A stretch of 64,000 nucleotides of DNA from Nitrospira tepida (GTDB lineage Bacteria; Nitrospirota; Nitrospiria; Nitrospirales; Nitrospiraceae): assembly GCF_947241125.1 (NCBI RefSeq), contig NZ_OX365700.1, forward strand, positions 4,374,461-4,438,460, in the 5' to 3' direction. Under the pieces are notes generated by a model. The model ran no database searches. It saw only the letters and a program-made list of their open reading frames with translations, and was not told the DNA's origin. The position numbers and the translations under genes are program-made. The stretch's first letter is position 1. Each line of letters begins with the position of its first letter. Positions 9,906 to 17,524 of this stretch are shown here, piece by piece.

Positions 9906-11921
9906 CTATTTGCTTCGCATCCGCTCAATTTTTACTCTCAGTTCTCTCACGATCGCCTCGAACGCGGCATCATGGTTAGGCCAACGCCCGCTCGCCACAG
10001 GCCGGTTATCCCGCGGTAAGGCTTGCGTTTTGTAATCGCCCTGATTAAACACACTGACCCAATCGCAAGGGCGCAAGATGATCGGAATTGGCACCGACTT
10101 CCCAACGGTACGCTGCCCAATCGCCCGCAAGAGCTCCTCTCGACAATACCGGGACTGAAGGAAGGACGCGCTGACGAGCAATAAGATGAGATCCGCTTCC
10201 CCGATCTCCTTATTGATCTCTCCTTCCCAATTAGCACCTGCTTCAATCTCCCGGTCGTGCCAGATCCTGATCAAACCCTCATCCACCAGAGGTGCCAGAT
10301 GCTCGCCTAACTTAGCACGCATTTTTTCATCTCTGTGGCTGTACGAGATGAAGAGCTTGAGGGGACCCCTACCAACTTGAGCCGGCCCACCATGGCCCTC
10401 GCTAGGCACGTTCTTTGCCACAGGCACTGGTCTAGTTGAAGGCGGTGCCGAACCTGGCATTGCCAATTCAACGGGCCTTAGAACTGGATCAAGTGGCTCC
10501 ATTTCAGCCCGCCAAGCGGTCAGATGGTTCTTAGATTGTTCACCCCCGGTTGCAAGTCCATCCAGTACAGCCAACTGAAGAAAGCGATGCACAAAGAAAA
10601 GGTCCACACGTTTGAAATAATCCTCCGAGTTGGCCGCAGCAACAAGTTCGGAGTTTAGTCTTATCGCACCGTTGGGTCGCCCAAGTATGGCCGCCGCCGC
10701 AGCAAGTCCGATACGCTCAAGAGGAGTAGCGGCTTCACGCTGCATGGTAAGAACACTCTCCAACAATGCTCTGTCACCAATGTAAGCAACTGCGAGCGCA
10801 GCATTCAGCCGCCAGTAGTCGTCATGCGAATCAAGCAATCTGGGAAGCTGCGGATGTCGTTGGCCCAGACGAGCGAGCGATACCACTGCTTCTGCGGAAG
10901 TGGGATCATCCCCTTTTACAACCGCGTTTAATACTGCCAGCGCCCGGTTCTTGTCGCTTGCTCGCCATGCAGCTTTGGCTATATGGGGCTGCCCCTCTTG
11001 GCGAGATGAAGTGAAGTGATCGATCAAGGCGTCAGTACCAGATACTGTTTCACTCCGCTCCAAAGTATGAAGGAGTGAGATCCGCACCGATTGAACCGGT
11101 TCACGCTGAAGCCACTCCGTCACTGGCCTCACGGTTCGCTGAAAACCGAGGCTCGCAAGAATTTGAGCGCCGAAGTCACGGACGCGCCAGTGCGCATGTT
11201 TAGACCAACGGGCAAGAATGTGGTCGGCAACCTTCCCATGACGCCATGTCAGAAATACATTATGAGCTTCTCCTGCTAATTCAGCACCATGAAGCGCTTC
11301 ATTAGAAAGCCTCGTGTCAGGTTGGTCACTGATCTCGGTAAGCTTGTACCCCGGCCATTCATGAGTGATGAGTTGCTCGATCGCCCATCTATGATGATCT
11401 TCGCCGGTTCTCGCAAACGCGGCGCAGGCGCCACGAAATGCAGATGTACGTAGCTTTTCCCACGCGAAACGGCTGCCGCTTACATTGTCCCACAGCATTG
11501 CGGCACCACCCCCAGCGTAGCCCCACGCCAGCAAGCGGTTCCAGGCTGGATCGTAGTCGAGAAGCGTGGCTCTGGTGGGTTGTGAATCCTTGAAGTCGTT
11601 CGAAAGTTGTGCATATAACGCGCGCATGACCCCAGGATTTTCGCTGATTCCAGCGAAAAGGTACGCCGCTACATGGGCATCCTTGAATCGGTCCTGGTTC
11701 TCCATCCGATCGATGAGCCGGACCGTCCCCACATTAGGACGGGAGGCAACGTATTGCAGCCAGCGACGACGCACTTGCATCGTCTTCGGATCTTCGATCC
11801 TACGTGAAAACAACGCGTCTTCTCCAGAGTTCCCAAGCACCAGTAGGTCACGAAGCGCCTGCGTACCGGCTATTGGATCACCACCAAGAAAGCGCTCGAC
11901 GAGCTGATCCGGATTCGACAC
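9906..11921 (-). CDS. HEAT-repeat protein with C-terminal TIR domain
   Basis: 671 residues. Residues about 1-480 are helical HEAT-like repeats (for example RLNAALAVAYIGDRALLESV). After a Pro-rich hinge (about 488-518) comes a TIR domain, 521-671. It begins LKLFISYSHRDEKMRAKLGE and has an IWHDREIEAG loop and SRYCREELLRA, where Glu596 sits at the catalytic position of TIR NADases. Bacterial TIR proteins often act in defence by cleaving NAD or making cyclic ADP-ribose signals. Here the repeats would sense or scaffold. Standalone gene, 226 bases from the acuI stop. NADase activity is inference. Confidence 0.8.
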   Translation of the reverse strand: MSNPDQLVERFLGGDPIAGTQALRDLLVLGNSGEDALFSRRIEDPKTMQVRRRWLQYVASRPNVGTVRLIDRMENQDRFKDAHVAAYLFAGISENPGVMRALYAQLSNDFKDSQPTRATLLDYDPAWNRLLAWGYAGGGAAMLWDNVSGSRFAWEKLRTSAFRGACAAFARTGEDHHRWAIEQLITHEWPGYKLTEISDQPDTRLSNEALHGAELAGEAHNVFLTWRHGKVADHILARWSKHAHWRVRDFGAQILASLGFQRTVRPVTEWLQREPVQSVRISLLHTLERSETVSGTDALIDHFTSSRQEGQPHIAKAAWRASDKNRALAVLNAVVKGDDPTSAEAVVSLARLGQRHPQLPRLLDSHDDYWRLNAALAVAYIGDRALLESVLTMQREAATPLERIGLAAAAAILGRPNGAIRLNSELVAAANSEDYFKRVDLFFVHRFLQLAVLDGLATGGEQSKNHLTAWRAEMEPLDPVLRPVELAMPGSAPPSTRPVPVAKNVPSEGHGGPAQVGRGPLKLFISYSHRDEKMRAKLGEHLAPLVDEGLIRIWHDREIEAGANWEGEINKEIGEADLILLLVSASFLQSRYCREELLRAIGQRTVGKSVPIPIILRPCDWVSVFNQGDYKTQALPRDNRPVASGRWPNHDAAFEAIVRELRVKIERMRSK

Positions 11922-13141: not shown

Positions 13142-13582
13142 TCAGCCAAGTGGAAACGTGCCAGAGATTGTCGTACTCCTACCTACCGTAGGCGCAATCT
13201 CGATTTGAAACTTTCCACCTTCTGTCGGTTGCTCGCTTTCGTCCAGAGGGAAAACCAGGTCATGCACTTGTATCTCATGTGAATCGAGTCGTATGAAGGA
13301 GTCTACTCTCACCTGCTGATATGCCTTCTGTTGCCCGATGGCGAGCGAAATTGTCTTAATATAGACAACTCGACTGTTACGGTTCGTCAAAGCAAGCCTT
13401 ACATGATAGCGACGTGGCCAAGGACTGATCACAACTATCGAGTCATTAGAGTTGATCCGCCTCTCCTCATATCGCAGGCATGAGACTTCACCTGCTATCG
13501 GGGACCGAAGCCAACCAATCAGTTTTGGCAGAAGCTGAATGAGGCTGTTGAGAAGCGATCCAATCGGAGTCAGTGGATCCAT
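13142..13582 (-). CDS. Unknown protein coupled to the RM-Fic gene
   Basis: 146 residues, not recognised. The ATG at 13582 overlaps the Fic stop as TGATG, a strong sign of coupled translation. The N-terminal 30 residues (MDPLTPIGSLLNSLIQLLPK...) form an amphipathic or membrane-associating helix. The remainder is beta-rich (VVISPWPRRYHVRLALTN, VVYIKTISLAIG), like an Ig-type sandwich. No catalytic motif is visible. Its location suggests it serves the RM-Fic system, perhaps as membrane anchor or accessory factor (inference). Confidence 0.6.
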   Translation of the reverse strand: MDPLTPIGSLLNSLIQLLPKLIGWLRSPIAGEVSCLRYEERRINSNDSIVVISPWPRRYHVRLALTNRNSRVVYIKTISLAIGQQKAYQQVRVDSFIRLDSHEIQVHDLVFPLDESEQPTEGGKFQIEIAPTVGRSTTISGTFPLG

Positions 13583-16500
13583 CAAAGTGCTTCAGAAAGG
13601 CGATGAGACCATATGCTTGTTAGACGGGTGAGGTCTCCACTGTCGGCGGTCTGCAACGCATCGAGATAATTGCGCCTGGATAATGGTTCAATTGGAGCGG
13701 TTTCAATATGTGGGAGGGAAAGCTTGTATAACAGTGCACCAAGGAGCACTCGGCCGATGCGGCCATTGAAATCTTTGAAGGGGTGAATCCATTGGAAGCG
13801 CCAGTCTGCCCAGGCGAGGAATTCTGCCGCACGCCTGACAGTCGCACCGGGATCATGTCGCAGACGTTCGGCTAGGTCATCGCAGAAGGTCCGCATGTGA
13901 ATCGGTACTTCATAGAACGGCGGTGGGTTGTGGGAACCAACCTGCACATTCACATCACGGAACCGTCCGGCCCAATCAGGATACAGGTGACCGGCTAGTC
14001 GCTTGTGCCGAATACAGAGCCACTCCGAGGTAATGACAATCTGATCCGGGTTCGTTTGCAGGATCTCGTCGTAGATCGCGACAAGGGGGACGGCCAGCCG
14101 CTCAGAGAGTTCCGGATAGGAAAGGCGACCTTCGGCGGTGTCGAACTCGCGAGTGGAGCTTAGCTCGCTTTGCTCTTCAGTCCCGTCAGGGTCCTCAGGC
14201 GTTCCGTACTGACCGGTTGGTTCTCGAACGCCATGGACTGGCTCACGCGCTCCAAAAGGACTTTCCGGTGTGCTGCCGCCACCTTCGCGGGCGTATCGTG
14301 CTGCTTCCGCCACTGTTGTAGCCATGCCTGGACCTGGGCCAGGTCGATCGGTTGGTTCGGGTTCTGTTTCATGGTCTTCATTCTCCTTCAGCTTCGGCGA
14401 AGATGCAACCGACGCCGCTTCGACGATCCTGATCTCCTCCTCCGTCAAACCATAGAGGTCATACACCAAGCGGTCGATCTCCTGATCGGTTGCGTTGATC
14501 TGGCGCTGGAGACGGTCCTTGTCGGCAGGTGTCTTGCCCTCTGGGAGACGCTTGTGCAAATCCAACATGCGCTCGACCAACGAGACCATCTGATCATGCC
14601 TGCTTTTATCCGCCTTGTCACACAGGCTTAGAATTCTTATTGGAAGCCGCTCGACATTTGTCTTTTTAACTTCGGCTAGAGCCTCACCGGCTTCTGGATT
14701 CAATGCTTGGTAGCACCAGTTAAGAAGCTTCGAGTTGATCACCCCGAGCAGAAACTTAGCTGAAACCTCATTCTCATGTGGGACCAAAACGTGCATGTTG
14801 TTAAGACAGAGATACTGTCTGTCGTCCAATGCAGCAACAAGGCTGTCACCTGTCTGCCGCATTACAATCTTCACTGGTGCGTCAAAGTCAGCAGCTGGCC
14901 TTGGCTCGGCAAGCCATGGACCGTACCTTAAAAAGCGTGGCTGTAATGGCGCAATGACAAAACGGTTTATGTCGGAACCTCGGAGATAAGGCCGAAATGA
15001 GGTGGTCTTCTGTCGATTACTATCAAATGGCCGACTCTGAACAATCGCTTTGGTTTGTGGAGGAGTACCTTTCCCAACTTGGTAAGGCTTGATTCCCACG
15101 TTGATTTCACAAAGTGAACCTAGTGCGGCACTGTTCGATTTGCATTTTTCAAGCAAAGTCTCCTCTTTTGGACTTGCGAAAATATTGACCGTGTCACCTT
15201 TCAGCTTTTCCCACTTCTTTTGATTGTGAAGAATCGTTCTAAGGCCTTGGCCATTAGCACCAAAGAGAAATGTTCCCAAGGACTCGAACACTTTTATTAC
15301 AACCTCCCCATCTTGAGCGCGTGCATTCTGTAGGAGAACAATTTCGGTATCGACTGTCACCTTTGGGAACACAGAGAATTTGAAGTGCACAATCTCTCGA
15401 ACTCGTGTTTCTTCAAATACAAACCGCCTGATTTTGGTCTGCAGCAGGTTCGTAAGCCAGGGATTGGGAATGATCATCCCATAAAATCCTTCGTGTCGAA
15501 CGAGGCTTCTCATGCTACGTTCTAGAAAGAGAAGGTAGCTATCAAGTTGATAAGTCTGACTTGGATATTTTGAACTCAAGTAGGCTTTGTCCTGCCCATA
15601 AAAGTAAGCACCGTACGGCGGATTCCCGATCACCGCATCAAAGCCTCCTGCTTTCATGATTTCCGGGAACTCCGCCTGCCAATCGAACGGGTTCACTCGG
15701 CGCACTTCGTCTTCATCCGGTATCAGTTGCCCGGCAAAGTAATCCGGCCCGATGAGGCTGTTGCCGCATTTGATGTTTTTGCCCAGGTCGGGCAGTACGC
15801 GCACTCGTCCAAATAACAACTCTTGCAGGGACTCCTGGTTCTCCCCCTCCAAAACCTTCAACAGCAGGCTGAGCTTGGTGACTTCGACAGCCTGGGGGTC
15901 AATGTCCACGCCATATATGTTGCTCAGGAGAATGCGTTTTTTCTCCTCGGTCCTGAGACGCCAATCGCCGCCAGTGGCCTTAAAAAGCTCTTTCTTGTGC
16001 TTGTCAGTCCCGTCCTTCACATACCAATCACGATGGTAGGTCAGCAGGAATTGATAGGCGCCGATCAGGAACGATCCCGATCCGCAGGCGGGATCTAGAA
16101 TCCTGAGCTTCGCAATCTGCTTCGGCGTCTTGCCCTGGCACAAGGTACCGACGGTGTGCTTGACGATGTACTCCACGATGTACGCGGGGGTGTAATAGAC
16201 GCCTCCGGCTTTCCTCACCTCCGGTTTCTCTTCGATCCTGGCCTGATGGCTTGCGGTTAGCCGAATCACTTTCCCGAGGAATTGCTCGTAGACCTGCCCG
16301 AGGATTTCCACAGGCAAGACCGAGAACTCGTAGGGGCTCTCCGGGTAGTACAGGCGCCCGATGATGTCTTTGAGTACCTTGTCATCGATCTTCAGCCGCG
16401 GTGTCAGATCGTCCGGCGATTCAGCCCGGTCCTTTTCAGGATGAAAATGAAAGAGGCCAGAGTTGTAACGGTCGTCGGCTCGGTCGTAGAGATAGCGGAG

Positions 16501-17292
16501 CCGGCTGTAGATGTTCTGGCCGTTCTGCAGCCCCTGAAGCTGCCCATAGGACTCGACGCCGCGATCCTCGCAGATCCGGAGAAAGATGAGGCGATCAATG
16601 GTGCGCTGGACCGAAAAGTTCAGCTCTTGGACGGACAGTTTGGGATTGCGCAGGGCCAGGTTCTTAGCCAGAGCTTCCCGCCAACTCTCAATCTCTTTGA
16701 GAAATTCGGCATCGACGGTGGCCGTGCCCCGCTTCCTCTCGGCACCCGCATACTTGTCGAAGGAACCTTTGAGGACCGAATCCTTCGAGAAGATGGCCGC
16801 AATCTTGTGCCATTCCGCTGGATAGTCTTTGTATGTCCAGTAGTGGATGCGGCCGATGCCCGGCTTGTCGGAGGGGTTCGGGCGTGTCCGGCAGTCGTAG
16901 ACTGCGAATTCTTCGAAGTCGGTCAGGATCGAGAGCGGGAGCTTGGCCGACCAGGCATAGCGGCGGAGTTGATAGGCGGGAGGAATCTCGTCCTTAACGT
17001 TGACAGCCGGCTTCTTGGCTTCGAGGAAAAACTTGCGCGCCCCACCGATGCGAAAGCAGTAGTCCGGCGCTTTGGATGCGCCGCCGATCTTGATGGCATC
17101 CTCGTGGATGACATCCTTATAGGCTTCGGCATGACCGGCCTTGTTGGCGACATCCCAGCCGAGGGCCTCGAAAAACGGATCGAGGAATTCTCGCCGCAGT
17201 TGGGTCTCGTTGTAGCCTTGGCTTTTGTAGGCCTCCCGGTTTCGATCAAACCGCTCGATCAGGTCTGAGATGATACCCGGAGCCTGCCCCAT
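13582..17292 (-). CDS. Type IIG restriction-modification enzyme reading into a C-terminal Fic domain
   Basis: 1236 residues in one frame. N-terminal nuclease-like domain: Asp77 in APDYCFRIGG with Glu91-Ala-Lys93 in FLEAKKP (PD-ExK pattern). N6-adenine methylase: motif I ILDPACGSGSFLIGA near residue 400 and NPPY near 555 (Eco57I type). A target-recognition region follows, with the RM part seeming to end near YDLYGLTEEEIRIVE (about 960). Residues 974-1044 are an odd low-complexity linker. Residues about 1050-1236 form a Fic domain with HPFKDFNGRIGR near 1168-1181 (usual HPFxxGNGRxxR; Phe replaces the first Gly). The linker coincides with a nested out-of-frame gene at 14160-14372. The fusion may be real or the result of a lost stop. 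Confidence 0.85.
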   Translation of the reverse strand: MGQAPGIISDLIERFDRNREAYKSQGYNETQLRREFLDPFFEALGWDVANKAGHAEAYKDVIHEDAIKIGGASKAPDYCFRIGGARKFFLEAKKPAVNVKDEIPPAYQLRRYAWSAKLPLSILTDFEEFAVYDCRTRPNPSDKPGIGRIHYWTYKDYPAEWHKIAAIFSKDSVLKGSFDKYAGAERKRGTATVDAEFLKEIESWREALAKNLALRNPKLSVQELNFSVQRTIDRLIFLRICEDRGVESYGQLQGLQNGQNIYSRLRYLYDRADDRYNSGLFHFHPEKDRAESPDDLTPRLKIDDKVLKDIIGRLYYPESPYEFSVLPVEILGQVYEQFLGKVIRLTASHQARIEEKPEVRKAGGVYYTPAYIVEYIVKHTVGTLCQGKTPKQIAKLRILDPACGSGSFLIGAYQFLLTYHRDWYVKDGTDKHKKELFKATGGDWRLRTEEKKRILLSNIYGVDIDPQAVEVTKLSLLLKVLEGENQESLQELLFGRVRVLPDLGKNIKCGNSLIGPDYFAGQLIPDEDEVRRVNPFDWQAEFPEIMKAGGFDAVIGNPPYGAYFYGQDKAYLSSKYPSQTYQLDSYLLFLERSMRSLVRHEGFYGMIIPNPWLTNLLQTKIRRFVFEETRVREIVHFKFSVFPKVTVDTEIVLLQNARAQDGEVVIKVFESLGTFLFGANGQGLRTILHNQKKWEKLKGDTVNIFASPKEETLLEKCKSNSAALGSLCEINVGIKPYQVGKGTPPQTKAIVQSRPFDSNRQKTTSFRPYLRGSDINRFVIAPLQPRFLRYGPWLAEPRPAADFDAPVKIVMRQTGDSLVAALDDRQYLCLNNMHVLVPHENEVSAKFLLGVINSKLLNWCYQALNPEAGEALAEVKKTNVERLPIRILSLCDKADKSRHDQMVSLVERMLDLHKRLPEGKTPADKDRLQRQINATDQEIDRLVYDLYGLTEEEIRIVEAASVASSPKLKENEDHETEPEPTDRPGPGPGMATTVAEAARYAREGGGSTPESPFGAREPVHGVREPTGQYGTPEDPDGTEEQSELSSTREFDTAEGRLSYPELSERLAVPLVAIYDEILQTNPDQIVITSEWLCIRHKRLAGHLYPDWAGRFRDVNVQVGSHNPPPFYEVPIHMRTFCDDLAERLRHDPGATVRRAAEFLAWADWRFQWIHPFKDFNGRIGRVLLGALLYKLSLPHIETAPIEPLSRRNYLDALQTADSGDLTRLTSIWSHRLSEAL
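14160..14372 (-). CDS. Nested class I Fic antitoxin-like protein (VbhA/FicA type)
   Basis: 70 residues in the +1 frame inside the RM-Fic gene. ATG at 14372 has AAGGAG 10 bases upstream; an in-frame ATG at 14381 is too close to that site. The stop TAA is at 14160-14162, just before the Fic domain coding begins in the other frame. The product is helical and basic, and contains SMAFEN, an exact match to the inhibitory [S/T]xxxE[G/N] helix motif of Fic antitoxins, set in LLERVSQSMAFENQPVSTER. By hand count 55 of 70 codons here end in G or C, against 29 of 70 for the RM-Fic frame over the same DNA. That points to this frame as the selected one. Antitoxin-then-Fic order matches vbhA-vbhT. Confidence 0.7.
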   Translation of the reverse strand: MKQNPNQPIDLAQVQAWLQQWRKQHDTPAKVAAAHRKVLLERVSQSMAFENQPVSTERLRTLTGLKSKAS

Positions 17293-17524
17293 AAAGACCC
17301 TCCCTGCACCGATTCGCGGGCGAGTCTAGGGAGAAGCCCACCACTTGTCAATTTGTCAGAGTCCGCGGCGATCGATCGTCGCCGGCCGCAGTTGAAGAGT
17401 CGAACGTGATGGAGGGTGCCTTGCAACTGAAGATCCTGCGGAAGCTTAGCGCACCTTACCCTCGGTGCCAAGGCGCCCGCGTTCGGGAAGCGATTGTAGG
17501 GAACTCCGTTCGCCTGCGTCGTTT

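Follow-up and report, generated by a model that had tools for sequence, protein, structure and literature searches.

A type IIG restriction-modification enzyme fused to a Fic domain, with a candidate class I Fic antitoxin gene nested out of frame in the linker

In Nitrospira tepida, one gene of the window (the 64 000-nucleotide stretch of DNA analysed here) joins a restriction-modification (RM) enzyme to a C-terminal Fic domain, and the DNA of the linker between the two encodes, in another frame, a 70-residue protein that looks like an antidote to the fused Fic domain. We read this arrangement as a putative class I Fic toxin-antitoxin module: a type IIG RM enzyme carries the toxin at its C-terminus, and the antitoxin gene lies in the +1 frame within the linker DNA (probability roughly 0.78). 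The features on which this reading draws are as follows.

13582..17292, minus strand: RM-Fic fusion ORF, 1236 aa; frame kept in at least 22 genomes
14413..17292, minus strand: type IIG RM part by domain content, ~aa 1-960 (PD-ExK nuclease, Eco57I/N6 methylase, TaqI_C specificity domain)
14160..14372, minus strand: nested gene for the candidate antitoxin (70 codons and a stop), in +1 to the fusion frame
13729..14034, minus strand: Fic domain, aa 1087-1188, from Pfam, alignment and predicted fold; motif HPFKDFNGRIGR at ~13750-13785
14383..14388, minus strand: AAGGAG Shine-Dalgarno-like site, 10 nt before the antitoxin ATG
17323..17351, minus strand: promoter-like TTGACA-17-TAGACT, 31 nt upstream of the fusion ATG (weak)

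One frame joins a type IIG RM enzyme to a Fic domain

The fusion is a single unbroken frame of 1236 codons with zero Ns, in a genome assembled as one contig of 4.73 Mb, and its predicted product has a mass of 140.7 kDa. Pfam matches along the chain are HSDR_N (aa 61-139), N6_Mtase/Eco57I (aa 329-642, E 1.6e-38), TaqI_C (aa 768-885, E 3.5e-20) and Fic (aa 1087-1188, E 1.1e-11). The nuclease motif PD(x)nExK (~aa 75-93), DPACGSGSF at 400 and NPPY at 557 share their frame with the FIC motif HPFKDFNGRIGR at aa 1170. A PD-(D/E)xK nuclease, a gamma-type N6-adenine methylase and a specificity domain thus share one chain, which by domain content is that of a type IIG RM enzyme; the PADLOC type IIG model matches at E 3.9e-203. 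The natural end of the RM part (14413) was placed by comparison with an RM-only relative (L168), which terminates at ...EDEIAIVEAS*, equivalent to the start of the linker in the fusion. The linker itself (~aa 960-1045) is of low complexity and rich in Pro, Gly, Ser and Glu because the same DNA encodes the second gene in another frame. No obvious start codon of its own was found for the Fic part in the window, so a frameshift or stop that inactivated the RM enzyme would also remove Fic. Promoter-like matches of the kind listed above numbered three against 2.3 expected in shuffled sequence, so the listed one is weak evidence.

The fusion is conserved in independent genomes

We searched 395 genomes of the phylum with the Fic part (threshold E<=1e-10) and obtained matches in 61, many of them in frames of 1150-1600 aa. 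Regions around 37 places were retrieved, and a scan of GTDB genomes yielded 80 named loci. An unbroken RM-Fic frame is present in at least 22 distinct genomes, and five more such frames reach a contig end. Carriers are mostly Nitrospirota, with one in Nitrospinota (L088, at a contig end) and two known from single metagenome-assembled genomes (MAGs), one labelled Deltaproteobacteria (L096) and one Nitrosospira (L117). Two further candidates (L134 and L138) were excluded from the count, their upstream frames resembling non-coding readings. At least three subfamilies can be told apart among the fused RM parts; identity between them is roughly 20-40% where they align, and all are of Eco57I/TaqI_C type. 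A search for viral relatives found none.

The claim of the sequence-only reading that RM and Fic share one chain is therefore borne out by the open frame, by the presence of all motifs and by conservation far beyond the source genome. That reading had also considered a one-base error near the junction, with a TGA at 14378-14380 as the RM enzyme's own stop, and homologues that are always separate. Such an error does not account for the fusion: more than 20 other assemblies also have RM and Fic in a common frame. In many of these the stretch with the TGA, AAGGAGAATGA, is conserved too, likewise in the unused frame, where it forms part of the ribosome-binding region of the antitoxin gene. Single relatives are indeed broken or frameshifted (L036, L053, L061 and L167, the last retaining the RM enzyme with a broken antitoxin and no Fic), as one might expect if the frame reflected a mistake in sequencing or assembly, or a single chance fusion. 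We give such an explanation virtually no credence: the frame recurs in many independent assemblies, the window comes from a single-contig genome, selection acts on both frames (see below), and bacteria of several phyla share the arrangement.

The linker DNA encodes a class I antitoxin-like protein

The predicted translation of the nested gene is MKQNPNQPIDLAQVQAWLQQWRKQHDTPAKVAAAHRKVLLERVSQSMAFENQPVSTERLRTLTGLKSKAS, with an alternative in-frame ATG at 14381. Residues 46-51, SMAFEN, fit [S/T]xxxE[G/N], the inhibitory motif of class I Fic antitoxins, and in an alignment of 29 homologues S46, M47, F49 and E50 are invariant. The residue after the motif Glu is Arg or Lys in about one-third of the family, whereas the protein of the window has the canonical Asn. 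An AlphaFold2 model (pLDDT 84.7) has three helices, the second of which ends in SMAFEN. Sites resembling Shine-Dalgarno sequences precede 26 of 33 antitoxin starts in fused loci, compared with 17% of background ATGs.

The relation between the two genes is constant as well. The antitoxin gene lies in +1 to Fic in 92/97 loci; of the remaining five, four have broken or partial Fic frames and one is a distant Nocardia locus with separate genes. SMx[FLM]E is kept in 95/97 antitoxins. Pfam, PDB-profile and fold searches gave no match of the antitoxin to VbhA or FicA, a weak negative for so short a protein, and Foldseek and VIA searches returned no matches; the assignment as an antitoxin therefore rests on motif, position and conservation. 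A Pfam hit to T3SS_needle_F (0.0023) was below the cut-off and was judged spurious.

Both overlapping frames are under selection

Comparison of the loci demonstrates selection on the fusion frame and on the antitoxin frame alike, and several different tests agree. First, we grouped loci by the presence or absence of a separate Fic start close to the end of the antitoxin. Within the antitoxin, the Fic frame contains stops in 0/63 loci without a local Fic start and in 22/28 loci with one (p=5e-16), and in 0/34 against 12/16 of a thinned set (p=1.5e-8), although, given the shared ancestry of the loci, the p-values make each single test look stronger than it is. Such stops arise from a third-position T preceding AA, AG or GA codons of the antitoxin. 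In loci without a local Fic start this T is found at none of 882 sites at risk and at 446 of 2035 safe sites, whereas its avoidance is not significant where Fic has its own start. Second, variability by codon position of the RM/Fic frame was measured in RM-fused loci of Nitrospira type. At the three positions, divergence is 0.36/0.30/0.54 for the RM part, 0.33/0.11/0.12 for the antitoxin region and 0.20/0.14/0.55 for Fic; the pattern switches to the antitoxin frame in the overlap and then returns to the RM/Fic frame. Lastly, synonymous divergence at conserved residues, antitoxin against Fic, is 0.28 vs 0.49 in fused loci and 0.31 vs 0.54 in Verrucomicrobial nested loci, compared with 0.30 vs 0.29 and 0.32 vs 0.22 in separate-gene loci. 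Synonymous change in the antitoxin is about halved, and this only in overlapping loci. An open frame can arise by chance in GC-rich DNA (P up to 0.45 for some betaproteobacterial loci), an effect that is real for single loci, so we draw the evidence from the whole set.

These counts bear on whether RM and Fic might be separate proteins with an incidental open frame between them. In the window, ATG 14325 or GTG 14313, both internal to the antitoxin gene, would then serve as the Fic start, or Fic would be reached by a -1 frameshift from the antitoxin. Most loci do have an NTG codon in the Fic frame at antitoxin position +59, a codon that the invariant Trp codon creates, and in separate loci the Fic start does overlap the antitoxin end. 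Yet the NTG is absent from several loci (L062, L067, L092 and L119), and stop avoidance extends upstream of it: in loci without a local Fic start, the stop-making T upstream of this recurrent candidate start occupies 0/83 risk sites against 34/142 safe sites where there is no RM partner, and 0/103 against 55/193 where there is one. At every locus with an adjacent intact RM gene, moreover, that gene is in the Fic frame. We therefore consider separate proteins improbable and retain the fused chain.

RM partners come and go while the Fic-antitoxin unit persists

On a tree of the Fic domains, the fused, nested-only and separate states require 17 changes, and supported branches force at least 11 for the fused state, with L039, a fusion by its frame but lacking the NPPY pattern, wrongly scored as nested. 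It follows that gain or loss of the RM partner has happened repeatedly. Separate loci fall into three groups on this tree, and the +1 relation of antitoxin to Fic stays constant while the RM partner varies.

Many loci carry the Fic-antitoxin unit with no RM partner at all. In RM-less Verrucomicrobial loci (L128-L142) the 5' end of fic contains the whole antitoxin gene, some 60-130 codons ahead of the Fic domain; the Fic ATG in Verrucomicrobiota typically precedes the antitoxin ATG by 4-22 nt, so the antitoxin is nested even without a fusion partner. Separate loci (L049, L051, L083, L087, L091, L094, L097-L099 and others) have a recurrent leader like CATGCAAGAATRCRCGCTATG before the antitoxin start. 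In a Burkholderiales MAG (L108:5263-6579) a Schlafen AlbA_2 domain is in frame with this same Fic domain and nested antitoxin, and the tail at the joint resembles an RM C-terminus. In a betaproteobacterial MAG (L119:5146-6558) the Fic frame is 471 aa long, and its first ~170 residues, domain-like and with no Pfam match, are possibly a further fusion partner.

A proposed mechanism and its rivals

Class I Fic antitoxins are encoded beside the toxin gene and occupy the Fic active site through [S/T]xxxE[G/N], and the class I toxin VbhT adenylylates gyrase and topoisomerase IV (PMC5033356). By analogy with this biology, ribosomes initiating at 17292 would produce the ~140 kDa RM-Fic chain, and others initiating on the same message at the internal AAGGAG-ATG (14388-14370) would produce the 70-residue antitoxin. 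Its SMAFEN helix may enter the Fic active site, with Glu50 pairing with the last Arg of the FIC motif, Arg1181, and would keep Fic inactive for as long as the antitoxin is supplied. Because the frames overlap, neither inheritance nor translation of the toxin domain is possible without the antidote sequence. Should the message or the antitoxin be lost, through gene loss or phage shut-off, whatever RM-Fic is left would turn into an active nucleotidyl-transferase and arrest the cell, in what may be an addiction or abortive-infection role.

The linker encodes a class I antitoxin-like protein, and it is therefore more likely that a separate small protein from the same mRNA controls Fic than that the RM domain does. 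The guard proposed in the sequence-only reading, in which a toxic Fic is set free once RM function is lost, may be compatible with the data but calls for revision; its sharper rival is DNA-triggered release by the RM domain. Here the RM domain would be a sensor, unmethylated or phage DNA would shift the conformation of the chain and eject the antitoxin, and Fic would be a restriction-regulated effector and not an addiction toxin. The repeated pairing of Fic with Eco57I/TaqI_C enzymes of at least three subfamilies fits such a role, as does a fusion that holds sensor and effector together, and a PADLOC candidate family, PDC-S04, has a match in the Fic part (E 1.9e-22). The Fic-antitoxin unit nonetheless does without an RM partner in many loci, so an RM sensor is not needed by the unit, and we regard sensing by the RM domain as a minority possibility, worth keeping in mind.

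The FIC motif itself raises a further doubt. A Fic fold is predicted for the domain, whose relatives include the class I toxins VbhT and EcFicT, and the Fic part is probably AMP-adding; the label 'AMPylator' of the sequence-only reading is best kept as putative, for the motif HPFKDFNGR departs from the canonical HPFxDGNGR by a Phe in the Gly position. Against the class I consensus HPFx[D/E]GN[G/K]R, HPFKDFNGRIGR has every listed residue but this Gly, and the substitution is found in nearly the whole family. The domain might accordingly be inactive as a toxin, a regulatory or structural appendage with the small protein as its stabilising partner, and class I EcFicT is seemingly unable to adenylylate (PMC5033356). 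In our alignment of 20 Fic sequences, however, the catalytic His, the Asp, Asn and Gly and both Arg of the motif are invariant, and the inhibitory Ser and Glu of the antitoxin are conserved as well. An inhibitor maintained by selection suggests an activity worth inhibiting, and we think an inert Fic domain unlikely; the toxin-antitoxin reading is preferred.

Relation to known systems

Class I FicTA modules, type IIG RM enzymes and in-frame gene-within-gene antitoxins such as Rpn are already known. With class I FicTA (VbhTA, EcFicTA/YhfG-Fic, FicTA; PMC5033356) the present system shares a small [S/T]xxxE[G/N] antitoxin encoded with a Fic protein, the Fic fold and the catalytic His, Asn and Arg residues. 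It differs in that the antitoxin is out of frame inside the toxin gene, the toxin is fused to an RM enzyme, the motif reads DFNGR instead of DGNGR, and the antitoxin has no detectable similarity to VbhA or FicA. In the Rpn system, RpnS is the C-terminal part of RpnL, made in the same frame from an internal start in a toxic anti-phage gene (PMC10327210). Our candidate is likewise predicted to arise from an internal start within its toxin gene, but in the +1 frame and with a sequence unrelated to the host protein, and is thus not a member of that in-frame class. Type IIG enzymes of the Eco57I/TaqI_C kind likewise combine nuclease, methylase and specificity domain in a single chain, and their natural end is kept before the linker, to which the fusion adds the C-terminal Fic domain and nested antitoxin. 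PDC-S04 is a 205-aa profile that covers the Fic part, while the RM part and nested antitoxin fall outside the model.

In the open-access literature we found no description of an RM-Fic fusion, nor of an out-of-frame antitoxin nested in its Fic toxin gene. To our knowledge, conserved out-of-frame gene overlaps have rarely been demonstrated in bacteria; here selection is seen on both frames in several phyla, and loci without the overlap serve as natural controls. Tentatively, we see in these loci what could be a new kind of defence or addiction gene, in which one message sets enzyme, poison and antidote, and gene loss, shut-off or engagement of DNA frees the toxin. The arrangement suggests a route by which a toxin could be joined to a restriction enzyme without death of the host, the antidote being encoded in the joint, and it makes a possible connection between RM enzymes and back-up toxins testable. 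We expect annotation pipelines to overlook the antitoxin and to report the fused protein as an ordinary RM enzyme or as chimeric.

Neighbouring genes

Directly downstream, a 146-aa gene of unassigned family (13142-13582, minus strand) has an ATG that overlaps the Fic stop (TGATG); no relatives were found among the loci fetched, and it was therefore left out of the system. About 2 kb from the RM-Fic gene, a further gene (9906-11921, minus strand) encodes a TIR domain (TIR_2, E 2e-15; ThsB-like, E 4e-34) fused to a HEAT-repeat region, and is likely a second defence gene.
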